A DNA stretch of 15,154 nt from Kiritimatiellia bacterium (GTDB taxonomy: Bacteria; Verrucomicrobiota; Kiritimatiellia; CAIQIC01; Lenti-01). The first letter of the stretch is position 1; every line of letters starts with the position of its first letter. Of the stretch, positions 1 to 6,036 are shown in pieces. A program made the translations under genes and the position numbers. The notes below the pieces were generated by a model that made no database searches, was not told the origin of the DNA, and saw only the letters and a list, made by a program, of their open reading frames with translations. The DNA is taken from the NCBI GenBank assembly GCA_018432565.1, contig JAHDSS010000552.1:1-15154 (forward strand). The letters are read 5' to 3'.

Positions 1-69
1 GAAGGCGCCCCACGCCAGCGGAATCGCCAGCGGCAGCCAGGTGAGCAGCTGGATCTGGCCCCACTTCAC
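1..69 (-). CDS. Second VWA/BatB-like protein, N-terminal fragment (cut by window edge)
   Basis: Only the first 23 codons are present. They start at a GTG (69-67) and read MKWGQIQLLTWLPLAIPLAW and onward, a short polar start followed by a hydrophobic span. A strong Shine-Dalgarno (GGGAGGC on the minus strand, 74-80) lies 5-6 bases upstream, which supports the GTG. The start overlaps the stop of the preceding BatA-like gene by four bases (GTGA), so translation is probably coupled. In Bat operons the gene after batA is usually batB, a second membrane-anchored von Willebrand A protein. The family call rests on this context and the N-terminal membrane segment, because no VWA motif is visible in the fragment. 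Confidence 0.6.
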   Translation of the reverse strand, partial: MKWGQIQLLTWLPLAIPLAWGAF

Positions 70-1049
70 GGCAGCCTCCCGAGGCGGGTGAAGCCCAGCA
101 GCGTTTCCAGCGCCAGGCACAGCAGGCCCAGCACAAGAAACGGCGCGAAGCGCTCTTCGTAGCGCGTGTACTGATCGAGTTCGATCTCCGTCTTTTCCAT
201 CTCGTCAATGGCCCGGTAGGTGTCTTCGAGGCTGGCGAGATCGGTGGCGCGGAAATAGCGCGCGCCGGTCAGCTCGGCGATTTTCGTCAGCATGGCCTCG
301 TCGATCTCGGGCCCGAGGGGGGCGAACTGGAACAGGCCCATGCCGCGGCGGGGCTGGCCGGAGGCGGCGCCGACGGTGTACACCTTGATGTCGAGGGCGG
401 CGGCGGCGCGGGCGGCGTCGAGCGGGGTGAGGCGGCCGGCGTTCTGGATGCCGTCGGTGAGCAGAATGACGACCTTGGATTTGGCCCGGGAGTCGCGCAG
501 GCGGTTGACGCCGGAGGCGATGGCGTCGCCGATGGCGGTGCCGTCTTCGAGCATGCCGGTCTGCAGGCGGTCCATCTGCAGCAGCAGCCAGGCGTGATCG
601 GTGGTGAGCGGCGCGATGGTGTAGGGCATGGCGGCGAACGTCACGATGCCGATGCGGTCGTCGGTCCGCGCACGGATGAACGGCTCCATGACGGATTTGG
701 CGGCGTCGAGCCGGTTCAGGCGGCGGGCGGCGGTGGAGAAATCCTCTTCGCGCATCGAGGTGGACGTATCCACCAGCAGGACGATGTCCACGCCTTCGGT
801 TTCGACGCGCGACTCGCTCAGGCCGGCCTGCGGGCGGGCGGCGGCGAGGATGACCAGGGCCAGGCCGGCGGCGAAGAGGGCGGGAGGCAGCCACCGCAGG
901 GCGAGCCACGGCGACGGCGGCAGGGCGGCCAGCGCTTCGCCGTCGGGGAAGGTGAAGGCGGCCCGGCGGCGGCGGGCATGGCGCAGCCAGACCAGCGCCG
1001 GCACCAGCAGGAGCAGCAGCAGGATCCAGGGATGGAGGAAACGGATCAT
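66..1049 (-). CDS. batA: BatA-type von Willebrand factor A membrane protein
   Basis: A 327-residue protein with two N-terminal membrane spans (about residues 7-22 and 54-71), a VWA domain from about residue 87 to 285, and a C-terminal span (about 302-320). The metal-ion-dependent adhesion site is intact: DTSTS at 94-98, a later DGTAIGDAI segment supplying the MIDAS threonine, and the LLTDG strand. This layout is that of BatA/BatB proteins of the MoxR/Bat ('aerotolerance') operons, which present the VWA domain on one side of the inner membrane and are thought to work with the MoxR ATPase on envelope or stress-related substrates. The start ATG overlaps the stop of the upstream lipoprotein gene by four bases (1046-1049), and the stop overlaps the next VWA gene. 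Family confidence is high; the physiological substrate is unknown. Confidence 0.9.
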   Translation of the reverse strand: MIRFLHPWILLLLLLVPALVWLRHARRRRAAFTFPDGEALAALPPSPWLALRWLPPALFAAGLALVILAAARPQAGLSESRVETEGVDIVLLVDTSTSMREEDFSTAARRLNRLDAAKSVMEPFIRARTDDRIGIVTFAAMPYTIAPLTTDHAWLLLQMDRLQTGMLEDGTAIGDAIASGVNRLRDSRAKSKVVILLTDGIQNAGRLTPLDAARAAAALDIKVYTVGAASGQPRRGMGLFQFAPLGPEIDEAMLTKIAELTGARYFRATDLASLEDTYRAIDEMEKTEIELDQYTRYEERFAPFLVLGLLCLALETLLGFTRLGRLP

Positions 1050-2254
1050 GGGGCGGGGGATGAAGGAGGTGAGGGTTGTGGGGAGGCGCCGGCGGGCGGA
1101 GCGAACTGATTCACCCGCCCCGCAAGGGGGCGGGGGTCTCGAACCGATGCACCTGCCTGCTCAAGGGGGCGGGGGTCTCGAACCGATGCACCTGCGTGCT
1201 CAAGGGGGCGGGGGTCTGAAGCCGGTGCAGCAGGGGGGCGGGGGTCTGGCGACGGCATGGTTTCGCGCACGAGGCGGGCGGCGGAATCAAGGGCGTTGCG
1301 CATGTCGCCCGGGCCGGGGGCGTGACGGGCGAATTTCACCAGATCGCTTTGTTCGAGGAATCCGCCGACGAGGTCGCGGTGGGCGTCGGAGAGTTTCTTC
1401 GAGGAGAGGGCGTCGCGGATGAATTCCTCGGTGGTGCGTTCGGGGGCGCGCAGGCCGAAGCGGGCTTCGAGGTAGCGGCGGACAATGGCGGAGAGCTCGA
1501 CATAGAACGGCTCGATGTTCAGGGCTTCGATCCAGCCTTTGGCGCGGAGGGCTTCGATGGCGTCGAGGGCGGCCTGGTGCGGCGGGACGGGCGGGGGCAT
1601 GTGGAGGATGGTGCGCGGCGCGGTCAGGACCCGGTGCAGGGCGGCGACGGCGGCGGCGAGCAGGGCGAGGGCGGCGAGGGCGATCCAGATCCAGCGGGAC
1701 GGCGGCGCGGGCCAGCGCGCAAGTCCGCCTTTGGCGGGGCGCGGATCGGTTTCGCCGGGGGCGAGCGACGATTCGACCTCCAGGGCAGCGAAGGGATAGG
1801 GAAGGGTCCAGTGCAGGCCCTGGGGGGTGGCGATGGTGAGTTGCTCGCCGTCGCCGATGACGTGGTTGGTGACGGTCATCGAGGTCAGGCGCAGCATCTG
1901 TTCGGTTTTGCACAGATCCCCGGGCAGGTCGGTCTGCATCGTGTCGCTGTCGCGCACGATGATGTCCTTGCCCCGGGCGACGGACGGGAATTCAACGAGC
2001 GTGCCGTCGCGGTGGAGGACTTTGACGGTCAGGCGAACGGGATCGCCGATGCGGATGCGGTTGGTGGACAGCGTGGCGGTGGCGGAGGCATCCTGGCCGG
2101 CGGGGAGTTCGGGGACGGCGGGGGGCGTCTCGGAGCAGCCGGCCAGGAAAGACAAACTAAGAATTAAAAATGAAGAATGAAGAATGGCGGCAGTTTTCCA
2201 CAGCGTGGAAAAAAACTTTCCATGGCGTGGAAAATCCGGGAAAAATTTTTCCAT
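1046..2254 (-). CDS. Membrane lipoprotein of the Bat operon (BatD/DUF4381-like architecture)
   Basis: Start chosen at ATG 2254-2252, giving 402 residues. The frame is open further to an ATG at 2374 that overlaps the DUF58 stop, but the extra 40 codons lie wholly in repeat DNA. From 2254 the protein has a long signal peptide with lipobox LAGC (Cys at about residue 40), then a probable beta-sandwich domain (about 50-185), one membrane span (about 190-208), a helical domain (about 225-335) containing the AALDAIEALRAKGW and EPFYVELSAIVRRYLEARFG segments, and a Pro-rich tail. Such a periplasmic-TM-cytoplasmic protein commonly sits between DUF58 and batA in these operons; the family name is by analogy. 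The signal-peptide core and the tail are both encoded by repeats. No clear Shine-Dalgarno precedes 2254, so the start is uncertain. Confidence 0.65.
   Translation of the reverse strand: MEKFFPDFPRHGKFFSTLWKTAAILHSSFLILSLSFLAGCSETPPAVPELPAGQDASATATLSTNRIRIGDPVRLTVKVLHRDGTLVEFPSVARGKDIIVRDSDTMQTDLPGDLCKTEQMLRLTSMTVTNHVIGDGEQLTIATPQGLHWTLPYPFAALEVESSLAPGETDPRPAKGGLARWPAPPSRWIWIALAALALLAAAVAALHRVLTAPRTILHMPPPVPPHQAALDAIEALRAKGWIEALNIEPFYVELSAIVRRYLEARFGLRAPERTTEEFIRDALSSKKLSDAHRDLVGGFLEQSDLVKFARHAPGPGDMRNALDSAARLVRETMPSPDPRPPAAPASDPRPLEHAGASVRDPRPLEQAGASVRDPRPLAGRVNQFAPPAGASPQPSPPSSPAP
1123..1249 (-). repeat. 39-bp tandem repeats in the 3' end of the lipoprotein gene
   Basis: On the plus strand, CAAGGGGGCGGGGGTCT begins at 1123, 1162 and 1201, exactly 39 bp apart. 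A related shorter unit starts near 1231. The repeat between the G-rich blocks contains CGAACCGATGCACCTGC. Because 39 is divisible by three, the unit adds 13 residues (DPRPLEQAGASVR type) to the lipoprotein tail without shifting frame. The sequence resembles an intergenic repeat that has entered the reading frame rather than a designed protein repeat. Confidence 0.85.
2156..2187. repeat. Low-GC simple-sequence word inside the signal-peptide region
   Basis: The plus strand carries a short-period word, with GAAGAATGAAGAATGG preceded by AAGAATTAAAAAT. It is strikingly AT-rich against its surroundings. Read on the minus strand in frame it encodes ILHSSFLILS, the hydrophobic core of the lipoprotein signal peptide, directly upstream of the LAGC lipobox. 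Confidence 0.7.
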
Positions 2255-2294
2255 GGCGTGGAAAATCCGGGAAAAATTTTTCCATGGCGTGGAA
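2196..2294. repeat. Four palindromic TTCCA-N5-TGGAA units, three with exact 31-bp period
   Basis: Units read TTCCATGGCGTGGAA at 2218-2232, 2249-2263 and 2280-2294, spaced exactly 31 bp apart. The spacer between them includes AATCCGGGAAAAATTTT. A variant, TTCCACAGCGTGGAA, lies at 2196-2210. Each unit has TTCCA/TGGAA arms able to pair. The array lies between the DUF58 gene and the lipobox of the next gene, and the middle unit supplies the ATG proposed as the lipoprotein start. Confidence 0.9.
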
Positions 2295-2298
2295 AACA

Positions 2299-2364
2299 GT
2301 AAATCATAGGACTGCCCCCTTTGGTGATCCGGGGCGGCAAAGTGAATATTTACGGTCTGACCCC
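2299..2364. repeat. REP-like inverted pair (GTAAAT...GCCCC / GGGGC...ATTTAC)
   Basis: GTAAAT (2299-2304) followed by CTGCCCC is mirrored by GGGGCGG and then ATTTAC (2348-2353), and the block ends in GGTCTGACCCC. Two diverged inverted copies of one word give a foldable unit of about 60 bp starting seven bases after the DUF58 stop codon. From memory, words such as 'tacggtctgacccc' occur at REP sequences beside Y1/IS200-like (RAYT) transposases; no transposase is present here. The link to RAYTs is an inference. Confidence 0.5.
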
Positions 2365-2370
2365 GCCCGT

Positions 2371-3246
2371 TCATCGGCGGCGCTCCCGGGTGCGGAAGAA
2401 GCGGACGAGCTGGCGGTCGTAGGGTTCGCCGGCATAGAGTTCGACGGCGTCGGATCGGGCGGCGCGCAGGGAGCGAAGGAGGGCGGTTCGGCGGGCGGAC
2501 TGGGCGGCGAGGAGGGCGCGGCGGGCGGGGGCGTGGGAGGTGTCGAGGAGGACGCGGCGTCCGGTTTCGGGGTCCTGGAAATCCACGAAGCCGGCGGCGG
2601 GCAGGGAGAGTTCGCGCTTGTCGCCGATGACGAGGCTGACGAGGTCGTGGCGGCGGGCGGTGACGCGCAGGAGGCGGTCGCAGGGCGGCGCGAGGAAGTC
2701 GGAGACGAGGAAGGCGACGGAGCGGCGGCGGACGACGTGGTTGAGGTATTCGAGGGCGGGGGCGAGATCGGTGCGGGGGGAGGCGGGGCGCGCGGCGAGG
2801 ATTTCGGAGATGACGCGCAGGACGTGGGTGGGCCCCTTGCGGGGAGGGATGTGCTTTTCCACGCGGTCGGTGAAGAGAATCAGCCCGACGCGGTCATGGT
2901 TGGCGATGGCGGAGAAGGCGAGGACGGCGGCGATTTCGGCGGCGAGGTCGCGCTTGAGCTGGGGCGTCGAGCCGAACCGGTTCGAGGCGGAAATGTCCAC
3001 CAGCAGCATGACGGTCAGTTCGCGTTCTTCGGTGAATTTCTTGACGTGGGGGGCGCCGGTGCGGGCGGTGACGTTCCAGTCAATGGAGCGGATGTCGTCG
3101 CCGGGGACGTATTCGCGGACTTCCTGGAACTCCATGCCCCGGCCCTTGAAGACGGAATGGTAGCGTCCGGCGAAGACATCGTGGACGGACCGCCGGGTGC
3201 GGATTTCGATCCGGCGGATTTTTCGCAATGTGTCGCGGGGGATCAT
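2371..3246 (-). CDS. DUF58 family protein of the MoxR/Bat operon
   Basis: A 291-residue protein. The family signature is clear: FAGRYHSVFKGRGMEFQEVREY at about 25-46, PGDDIRSIDWNVTARTG at 48-64, then the VWA-like LLVDISAS at 81-88. DUF58 proteins have a degenerate VWA fold and nearly always lie next to moxR, where they are thought to be partner or adaptor proteins of the ATPase. The start was set at ATG 3246-3244 because similarity to the family begins immediately there. The frame stays open 31 codons further to ATG 3339, but those codons are a low-complexity repeat. The chosen start has no purine-rich Shine-Dalgarno, since the upstream minus-strand DNA is pyrimidine-rich (CTCCCTCCTCCC). It lies 114 bases after moxR. 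Confidence 0.9.
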   Translation of the reverse strand: MIPRDTLRKIRRIEIRTRRSVHDVFAGRYHSVFKGRGMEFQEVREYVPGDDIRSIDWNVTARTGAPHVKKFTEERELTVMLLVDISASNRFGSTPQLKRDLAAEIAAVLAFSAIANHDRVGLILFTDRVEKHIPPRKGPTHVLRVISEILAARPASPRTDLAPALEYLNHVVRRRSVAFLVSDFLAPPCDRLLRVTARRHDLVSLVIGDKRELSLPAAGFVDFQDPETGRRVLLDTSHAPARRALLAAQSARRTALLRSLRAARSDAVELYAGEPYDRQLVRFFRTRERRR

Positions 3247-3345
3247 GGGAGGAGGGAGGGGGGAGGAAGGAGGGAAGAATGGAATGATGGAATAGTGGAA
3301 TGATGGGGAGATCGGAATTCCATTATTCCATTTTTCCAATCTTTC
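3247..3345. repeat. Low-complexity 'GGAATGATGGAAT' word block between moxR and DUF58
   Basis: The plus strand has a purine-rich run (GGAGGAGGGAGGGGGGAGG), then GAATGATGGAATAGTGGAATG, and after 3317 ATTCCATTATTCCATTTTTCC, which is roughly the reverse complement of the preceding block. The two halves could pair as an imperfect hairpin. The composition differs sharply from neighbouring coding DNA. The block fills the space where the DUF58 ribosome-binding site would be expected. Confidence 0.7.
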
Positions 3346-3360: not shown

Positions 3361-4356
<996 letters not shown>

Positions 4357-5304: not shown

Positions 5305-6036
5305 ATGCAAACGCCTCCGAGCCCGGATTCCTATAATAACTTTGGCTATCGAAAGAAAAAGAAGCCGGCGGGGGATGCCCGTCGGCCGTACGGGCCGCGT
5401 CCGGGCGGCGGAGCGGCGAGGCCGCCGCGCCGGGACGAGGGCGAAGGCGGGGAGCCCCGCAAGCCGCAGGGCACACGCCCGCCGCAGTCGTTCCGGAAGC
5501 CCTATGGGGAGCGGGAGGCGGGCGGCGAGGGCGGATTTCGGAAACCGTACGGTCCGCGCAAGCCCTATGGGCCGCGGCGGGACGAGGGCGAAGGCGGAGG
5601 ATTCCGCAAGCCCTATGCGCCGCGCAAGCCGTATGGGGAGCGGGAGGCGGGCGGCGAGGGCGGATTTCGGAAGCCGTACGGACCGCGCAAGCCCTACGGT
5701 CCGCGTCGGGACGAGGGCGAAGGCGGAGGATTCCGCAAGCCGTATGCGCCGCGCAAGCCGTACGGGGAGCGCGAGGCGGGCGGCGAGGGCGGATTTCGGA
5801 AGCCGTACGGACCGCGCAAGCCCTATGGGCCGCGGCGGGAAGAAGGCACGGGCGGAGGATTCCGCAAACCGCAGGGCCCGCGCAAGCCCTACGGCCCGCG
5901 CCGGGCAGAGGGTACAGGCGGAGGATTCCGCAAGCCGCAGGGACCGCGTCCGCCGCGCGGCGATCGGCCGCCGCAAAGCGGCGGCGTGCGGCCGGTATGG
6001 CGGAAGCCCGGCGAACGGCGGACGGATGACGAATAG
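5305..6036 (+). CDS. Intrinsically disordered Arg/Lys/Gly/Pro/Tyr-rich repeat protein
   Basis: Start chosen at ATG 5305 (243 residues), the point where the biased composition begins; GGGAGCAGGGTGG lies 7-20 bases upstream. No folded domain or known family is recognised. The body is built of a 43-residue unit (first copy at 5506, then 5635 and 5764, exactly 129 bp apart) containing GGFRKPYGPRKPYGPRR, an acidic DEGEGG patch, and FRKPYAPRKPYGEREAGGEGG. The first two units differ at several third codon positions, all synonymous, so the protein sequence appears to be under selection. Similar RKPYG tails occur on some bacterial RNA helicases and pseudouridine synthases, so RNA binding or condensate formation is plausible. 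Here the tail stands alone. Function unknown. Confidence 0.75.
   Translation: MQTPPSPDSYNNFGYRKKKKPAGDARRPYGPRPGGGAARPPRRDEGEGGEPRKPQGTRPPQSFRKPYGEREAGGEGGFRKPYGPRKPYGPRRDEGEGGGFRKPYAPRKPYGEREAGGEGGFRKPYGPRKPYGPRRDEGEGGGFRKPYAPRKPYGEREAGGEGGFRKPYGPRKPYGPRREEGTGGGFRKPQGPRKPYGPRRAEGTGGGFRKPQGPRPPRGDRPPQSGGVRPVWRKPGERRTDDE
5506..5892 (+). repeat. 129-bp in-frame tandem repeat
   Basis: Three units begin with GGGGAGCG at 5506, 5635 and 5764. Units one and two are nearly identical, while unit three is diverged (REEGTGG replaces RDEGEGG). A partial fourth unit follows to about 5950. Within each unit, an RKPYGP hexapeptide is itself repeated. Confidence 0.9.

Follow-up and report, generated by a model that had tools for sequence, protein, structure and literature searches.

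In-frame repeats in bacterial genes are already known, and the translation of those at N-termini has been doubted. The Rickettsia palindromic elements (RPEs) are palindromic repeats that have entered unrelated protein genes without disturbing the frame, and nearly half of those of R. conorii lie inside open reading frames (PMC10969869). The GTAG/CGTC REP elements are short and mostly intergenic palindromes, some of them at the N-termini of ORFs; Opitutus terrae, a member of the Verrucomicrobia, is rich in them (PMC3733652). Autotransporters are described as having signal sequences of unusual length at the N-terminus, i.e., extended signal peptides (PMC2805444). Our survey, which consisted mostly of records other than full texts, covered repeats in signal peptides, such repeats in Kiritimatiellae and Verrucomicrobia, and RPEs, and found no account of a leader built from repeats like the one described here.

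The locus belongs to an uncultured bacterium with a genome assembly of 2.5 Mb in 604 contigs (82.9% complete), and the window, i.e., the whole stretch of DNA that was analysed, is one entire contig of 15,154 bases. The genes of interest lie as follows:

3361-4356, minus strand: MoxR-type AAA gene.
2371-3246, minus strand: gene for a DUF58/VWA protein (PF01882, E 1.7e-78), with its TGA stop at 2371-2373.
1046-2374, minus strand: lipoprotein ORF of 442 aa, opening at an ATG that overlaps the DUF58 stop.
1046-2137, minus strand: mature part of the lipoprotein, up to the stop, BatD-like by operon position.
66-1049, minus strand: VWA/BatA-like gene.

The lipoprotein, which we take to be BatD-like from its place in the operon, gave only a sub-threshold match to DUF4381 when compared with Pfam (PF14316, E 0.0058, 17.4 bits vs. 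a cut-off of 27.2). A 39-bp tandem repeat of 3.3 copies (13 codons each) occupies 1102-1229 at the 3' end of its ORF; a short distance further on, the ORF overlaps the VWA/BatA-like gene at the next ATGA (1046-1049). Elsewhere in the window, simple words resembling GGAATGAT fill the interval from the MoxR-type gene to the start of the DUF58 gene (3247-3338), and tandem repeats of 63, 66, and 129 bp lie at 5497-5948 inside an open frame on the plus strand that is rich in Arg, Lys, Gly, and Pro.

The leader of the lipoprotein and its surroundings are made up of the following parts:

2383-2386, minus strand: GGAG, a Shine-Dalgarno (SD)-like word in the 3' end of the DUF58 gene, 8 nt before the overlapping ATG.
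2371-2374, minus strand: ATGA, the start of the lipoprotein ORF overlapping the DUF58 stop, as read in the sequence.
2138-2374, minus strand: leader of 79 codons from the overlapping start to the lipobox Cys, with one internal Met and no stop in frame 0.
2345-2364, minus strand: REP-like word GGGGTCAGACCGTAAATATT, a member of the family GGGGTCAGNCCNT.
2297-2319, minus strand: second REP-like word GGGGGCAGTCCTATGATTTACTG, in the same orientation, resembling a word that flanks the RAYT gene of locus L019.
2195-2211, 2217-2233, 2248-2264, and 2279-2295, no strand: four TTTCCA-N5-TGGAAA palindromes, in an array spanning 2195-2295.
2156-2187 (unit run 2159-2186), minus strand: AT-rich word with the 7-bp unit AAGAATG, read as ILHSSFLILS.
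2135-2146, minus strand: lipobox LAGC, recognised by motif, with the predicted acylated Cys80 at codon 2135-2137.

An earlier, sequence-only reading of this DNA had traced an unbroken frame from the ATG overlapping the DUF58 stop through the repeats into the lipoprotein, and we found the same: no stop interrupts frame 0 up to Cys80, while frames 1 and 2 of the leader hold two stops each. Of the 237 nt of the leader, 176 belong to a REP-like word, to a palindrome, or to the AT-rich word. Parts of the proposed geometry needed correction. An exact 31-bp period holds for three of the four palindromes, and the steps in plus-strand order are 22, 31, and 31. The REP-like inverted pair proposed at 2299-2364 had to be given up, as both words, each containing GGG(G/T)CAG, point the same way, and a search of 2296-2374 for inverted matches returned two 9-nt matches at 89% (one pairing 2296-2304 with 2348-2356, the other overlapping a palindrome) and no clear REP-type inverted pair. 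The low-GC simple word is present at 2156-2187 as described; it proved to be a rare word and not a high-copy repeat, with ATTCTTCATTCTTC occurring at two places in the host genome. A structured RNA family was also considered and rejected, Rfam giving two microRNA matches only, far below the gathering score.

By a motif-based test, the end of the leader resembles a lipoprotein signal peptide, with an h-region followed by a lipobox with its Cys (AILHSSFLILSLSFLAGC, maximum KD11 2.25). The AT-rich word encodes most of the hydrophobic core. The n-region is not the short one usual in lipoprotein signal peptides, since use of the overlapping start would place about 60 residues ahead of the h-region. 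Judged by sequence, part of the predicted signal peptide is repeat-derived, with palindromes contributing the n-region side and the AT-rich word the bulk of the h-region; the earlier proposal that repeats supply the signal peptide thus applies to this part and not to the whole.

A genome-wide count of the repeats had been suggested as a check, and it showed that the palindromes are not unique to the locus: TTTCCANNNNNTGGAAA occurs at 249 places in the host genome vs. 0 for a reversed-pattern control. It was found in 28 of 28 genomes of the order at 7 to 1363 copies per genome, although the counts of 7 in each of G001 and G002 may be due to chance. The palindrome core varies by lineage, being AYGGCGT-like in the host and AAGGCTT-like in G003 and G004 (genus g9, L142-L148; 244 to 1363 copies per genome), and in the stretches read, the g9 palindromes mostly stood between genes, alone or in pairs at 30-32 bp. 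Genomes that share the palindrome array are mostly titled as MAGs of Kiritimatiellae, Verrucomicrobia, Opitutia, or Lentisphaerae. The REP-like family GGGGTCAGNCCNT occurs at 40 places in the host genome (G000) vs. 2 for its control, and the search for a Y1/RAYT transposase, likewise suggested earlier, returned 12 matches. GGGTCAG words flank the RAYT gene on both sides in 7 of the 10 loci examined, as expected of RAYT-associated REP words, and the window leader contains two words of this kind. Palindromes were near just 2 of these 10 loci, and no RAYT link was shown for them.

The AT-rich word is present in 6 of the 28 genomes of the order and, judged by reading, forms a hydrophobic core or membrane segment at 10 of the 20 places seen (the window, L158, L151 twice, L162, L167 twice, L171, L174, and, less surely, L161); L166 is doubtful, and most other places are just upstream of a called gene. 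On the reverse strand of L167 (G025), near 3298 and 4033, two adjacent genes carry the word as hydrophobic core, each behind an overlapping start.

Palindrome arrays are mostly intergenic: 73 of 76 in the named loci (including 49 between tandem genes) and 111 of 116 in the enlarged set, with genes placed by a purpose-built, uncalibrated caller, seeded on amino-acid composition, that trims repeat-coded N-termini and called the window lipoprotein from 2155. Array placement and the frame counts over all arrays took 80 of the 86 array loci, the other six being added later to the start-overlap frame counts. High copy number and intergenic location are thus shared with the GTAG/CGTC REPs; their tag, however, is absent, GTAG/CTAC being found within 8 nt of 1/449 palindromes (random rate 0.057) and CGTC/GACG of 10/449. 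The RPEs differ in that they are frequently intragenic, a location that the trimming caller found for few arrays here. Unit and sequence also look different by description alone, and the in-frame cases here sit between an overlapping start and a leader.

The spacing of the palindromes raises the possibility that the array is kept for a role in DNA or RNA, as phased protein-binding sites or as hairpins in the operon mRNA, its coding being incidental. Among distinct neighbour spacings, 334 of 338 fall at 21-23, 30-31, 41-43, 51-53, or 61-63 bp, close to whole turns of DNA as would be expected of a protein-binding array (R 0.87 at a period of 10.5 bp); the intergenic location of 111/116 arrays and an RNA fold of the window array at z -4.2 point the same way. 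The fit to 10.5 bp is loose, however, since two spacings dominate, and the best-fitting period is 9.85. Moreover, such a role leaves unexplained a bias toward frame 0 that is specific to overlapping starts (see below), and palindrome-free leaders (G021, G013, G012) also keep the frame. As the whole explanation we consider it improbable, and it may hold in addition to the preferred one, namely that the repeats are translated as part of the leader.

To follow the junction in relatives, we matched DUF58 in 37 of the 38 genomes searched (host included) and fetched 30 loci. An ATG or GTG overlaps the DUF58 stop at 28 of these 30 orthologous junctions, the exceptions (G001 and G002) ending in TAG, and one junction (G019) is cut by a contig end after 25 codons. 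All 27 testable junctions are in frame with the lipoprotein from the overlapping start, 11 of them with palindromes, and this in-frame insertion of palindromes into coding genes is the feature shared with RPEs. The host's family, f1, comprises 17 genomes, of which G019 (cut), G026 (no match), and G015 (unreadable bases) fall outside the whole junctions; all 14 whole junctions are open in frame 0 from the overlapping start, and G015, not counted, is in frame on both sides of the unreadable run as written. Palindromes occur in 11 of the 14, with one only in G027. The distance from the start to a conserved motif of the mature part differs in all 14 (39-201 codons), and no two of the 12 junctions with a lipobox Cys have leaders of equal length (range 43-174 residues). 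Therefore, at least 11 net length changes must have occurred, each a multiple of three. At the leader end of G027 (L038) and G012 (L040) the lipobox Cys is missing, so the protein may have become an ordinary secreted or anchored form there.

The outgroups G003-G006, all of genus g9, keep the overlap with repeat-free leaders of about 20 residues, and other simple repeats, read by eye, occupy the leader position in G008, G021, G037, and G007. A DUF58 tree of the 30 loci confines the array to f1 and requires four changes of the array label; since sister genomes share arrays by descent, the leaders are not all independent. The leaders of G012 and G013 measure 18 and 43 aa, while their DUF58 proteins are nearly identical and 197 of 214 residues of the mature parts agree, and leaders can therefore turn over fast. 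Directly after the DUF58 stop of G013 (L039), the leader carries GACAATTCC/GGAATTGTC repeats that are absent from its close sister G012. Taken together, the overlap at 28/30 junctions, the retained frame, and the repeat-free g9 overlap bear out the earlier suggestion that repeats entered an ancestrally overlapping junction and that the frame was retained. The alignment of orthologous operons proposed with it found that orthologues do not share the N-terminal sequence, so the outcome that would speak against insertion was absent.

Since the arrays are stop-poor and no frame is favoured overall, an open frame as such says little. Among the 70 arrays with a same-strand gene downstream, frame 0 was open in 35, frame +1 in 33, and frame +2 in 28, and a genome-wide frame-0 bias of arrays was rejected. 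Stop-poor repeats beside a gene might therefore look coding in any frame by chance, as 30 of the 92 arrays with at least three copies (duplicates kept) have every one of the six frames open. The start, however, made a difference. Of the 36 arrays that followed a start with a 4-nt overlap, 12 were stopped before the called gene, 19 were open in frame 0, and 5 were open in another frame, whereas the 25 open arrays without an overlapping start lay in frame 0 in 5 cases and in other frames in 20. Frame 0 thus accounted for 19/24 open arrays behind an overlapping start vs. 5/25 without one (Fisher p 4.7e-5; p 0.0016 without the seven DUF58 junctions). A frame-blind sample, in which loci were picked by an ATGA near a palindrome, gave ratios of frame 0 to other frames of 5:0 behind an overlapping start and 0:5 without, two of the five in-frame cases (L264, DUF58, and L309, GspK) being already known junctions. 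In 25 array-bearing leaders (1704 codons) at the DUF58, DsbD-like, and GspK-like genes, stops in frames 0, 1, and 2 numbered 0, 29, and 15, the 14 non-DUF58 leaders having been picked as open in frame 0. Given the stops in frames 1 and 2, and the multiples of three separating the f1 leader lengths, we regard chance as very improbable. Palindromes of G012 and G013 hold a stop triplet in 25 of 43 cases vs. 130 of 449 elsewhere, and palindromes occur in none of their six leaders (three each); as a natural control for stop-bearing palindromes this is weak, resting on 7 arrays of at least three copies, partly one array in overlapping loci.

The same arrangement was found in other gene families. For the DsbD-like gene (DsbD_TM, E 4.8e-39), 7 of 8 array-bearing junctions are in frame from a 4-nt overlapping start (G020, G024, G022, G025, G023, G018, and G003); in G017, palindromes lie upstream and an overlapping start was not found. 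For the GspK-like gene (T2SSK_1st, E 1.6e-9; T2SS_GspK, E 5.3e-21, below its cut-off), 7 of 14 are in frame from a 4-nt overlap (G017, G016, G024, G025, G021, G003, and G008), G004 and, doubtfully at a contig edge, G015 are out of frame behind an overlapping start, and in G023, G014, G007, G011, and G005 palindromes lie upstream with no overlapping start found. The overlaps in G024 and G022 (DsbD) and in G016 and G003 (GspK) were taken from the junction comparison and not from the overlap detector, which had chosen an overlap farther away in the two DsbD cases and had detected none in the two GspK cases. The palindrome cores in GspK leaders of families f2, f3, and f4 do not resemble those of f1, which makes the arrays of these families lineage-specific. 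The DsbD and GspK examples are not independent of choice, because one member of each already looked in frame. Further in-frame cases are L062 (weakly TPR-like, 1-nt overlap), L310, L074 with its likely orthologue L271 and L096 with L305 (both paired by eye), L171 (the same as L083, a solute-binding protein), and L086 (pseudopilin-like, N_methyl below cut-off). A NusG-like gene, L087, is in frame too, but likely by chance.

If the array were an untranslated spacer, translation would begin at an internal ATG or GTG, often in the last palindrome, and the repeats would supply both the start and a short, ordinary signal peptide. Consistent with this, three DUF58-linked leaders (G017, G016, and G018) have an ATG inside a palindrome that precedes the lipobox Cys by 20-23 residues, and 18 of the 25 leaders have an internal ATG, GTG, or TTG 14-32 aa before the predicted cleavage; published REPs at the N-termini of ORFs were often judged extragenic for such a reason (PMC3733652). 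Only one of these 18, however, has an SD-like word. Overall, SD-like words precede 18 of 25 overlapping starts vs. 3 of 75 internal in-frame starts, the rate at random positions being 11.7%; 7 of the 25 overlapping starts lack one. The DsbD-like gene of G003 goes the other way, with an SD at the internal ATG and none at the overlapping GTG, and there the internal ATG looks like the real start, going by these words. Four leaders (G014, G020, G021, and G027) lack an internal ATG, and an untranslated spacer predicts no retention of frame from the overlapping start, as seen at 27/27 testable DUF58 junctions and in 19/24 open arrays. We consequently give the spacer a small share of the probability, above that of a DNA or RNA role. 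The only internal Met of the window leader (residue 41, inside a palindrome) lacks an SD-like word, and the idea that repeats supply the start codon is not upheld, the overlapping start being ancestral and usually preceded by such a word. The frame test from overlapping starts addresses the published doubt that N-terminal REPs are extragenic (PMC3733652), and here it favours translation.

We therefore think it probable that the window's 79 leader codons, largely genome repeats that share one frame with the start and the mature part, are translated as an oversized n-region, which is then cut off by lipoprotein signal peptidase. Sequence comparison establishes the identity of the repeats, the ancestral overlap, the retention of frame across genomes and gene families, and the SD-like words at most overlapping starts; translation and cleavage of the repeat-encoded leader are predicted, and likely. 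Coupled translation from the overlap would be followed by Sec targeting through the internal h-region, and cleavage at a lipobox, AxA, or prepilin site would discard the repeat peptide. In tight operons without an intergenic gap, we infer, repeats can survive only where inserted codons cost little, and the n-region of a cleaved leader would be such a site, leaving the upstream gene end, the coupled start, and the mature protein unchanged. Genes are likely to tolerate repeats in the leader, given its predicted removal during export. Initiation by ribosomes at the overlapping codon is the likely reason why the frame is kept; arrays out of frame would truncate expression of the downstream protein.

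The composition of the leaders agrees with such a role. Palindrome-encoded peptides mostly end in Lys (FSTxWK, FPxxGK, FHxxEK), and since the palindromes are also stop-poor, an in-frame array gives a stop-free, positive stretch that fits an n-region; K+R exceeded D+E in 25 of 25 array-bearing leaders. The AT-rich word would give residues of the ILHSSFFIL type, serving as hydrophobic core. A preference of arrays for genes of exported proteins is weakly supported: the hydrophobic-stretch threshold was passed by 10 of 14 array cases vs. 67 of 125 array-free genes with an overlapping start, and 8 of 9 families among the array cases were judged by eye to be exported (p about 0.03).

The extension of autotransporter signal peptides is a conserved region. 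The leader described here differs in being built from repeats and in turning over between sister species. One published repeat case, in the portion seen, involves one exported protein, whereas the arrangement described here extends over several classes of repeat, a number of gene families, and many genomes, and retention of frame was tested from the overlapping start. Overlapping starts provide a built-in frame test that is usable in any genome. More tentatively, cleavable leaders in general (Sec, lipoprotein, and prepilin) could be a landing pad that absorbs repeats as translated, disposable code, the repeats building working leaders with palindromes as charged n-region and AT-rich words as hydrophobic core; in exported proteins of this order, the turnover of repeats would then alter the leaders, with the frame preserved by the overlapping starts. 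If the repeats are indeed translated, gene callers that trim repeat-coded N-termini lose real leader sequence, as at 2155 here, cleaved leaders would be a low-cost sink for selfish DNA, and signal peptides could be built out of repeats and replaced from one sister species to the next.
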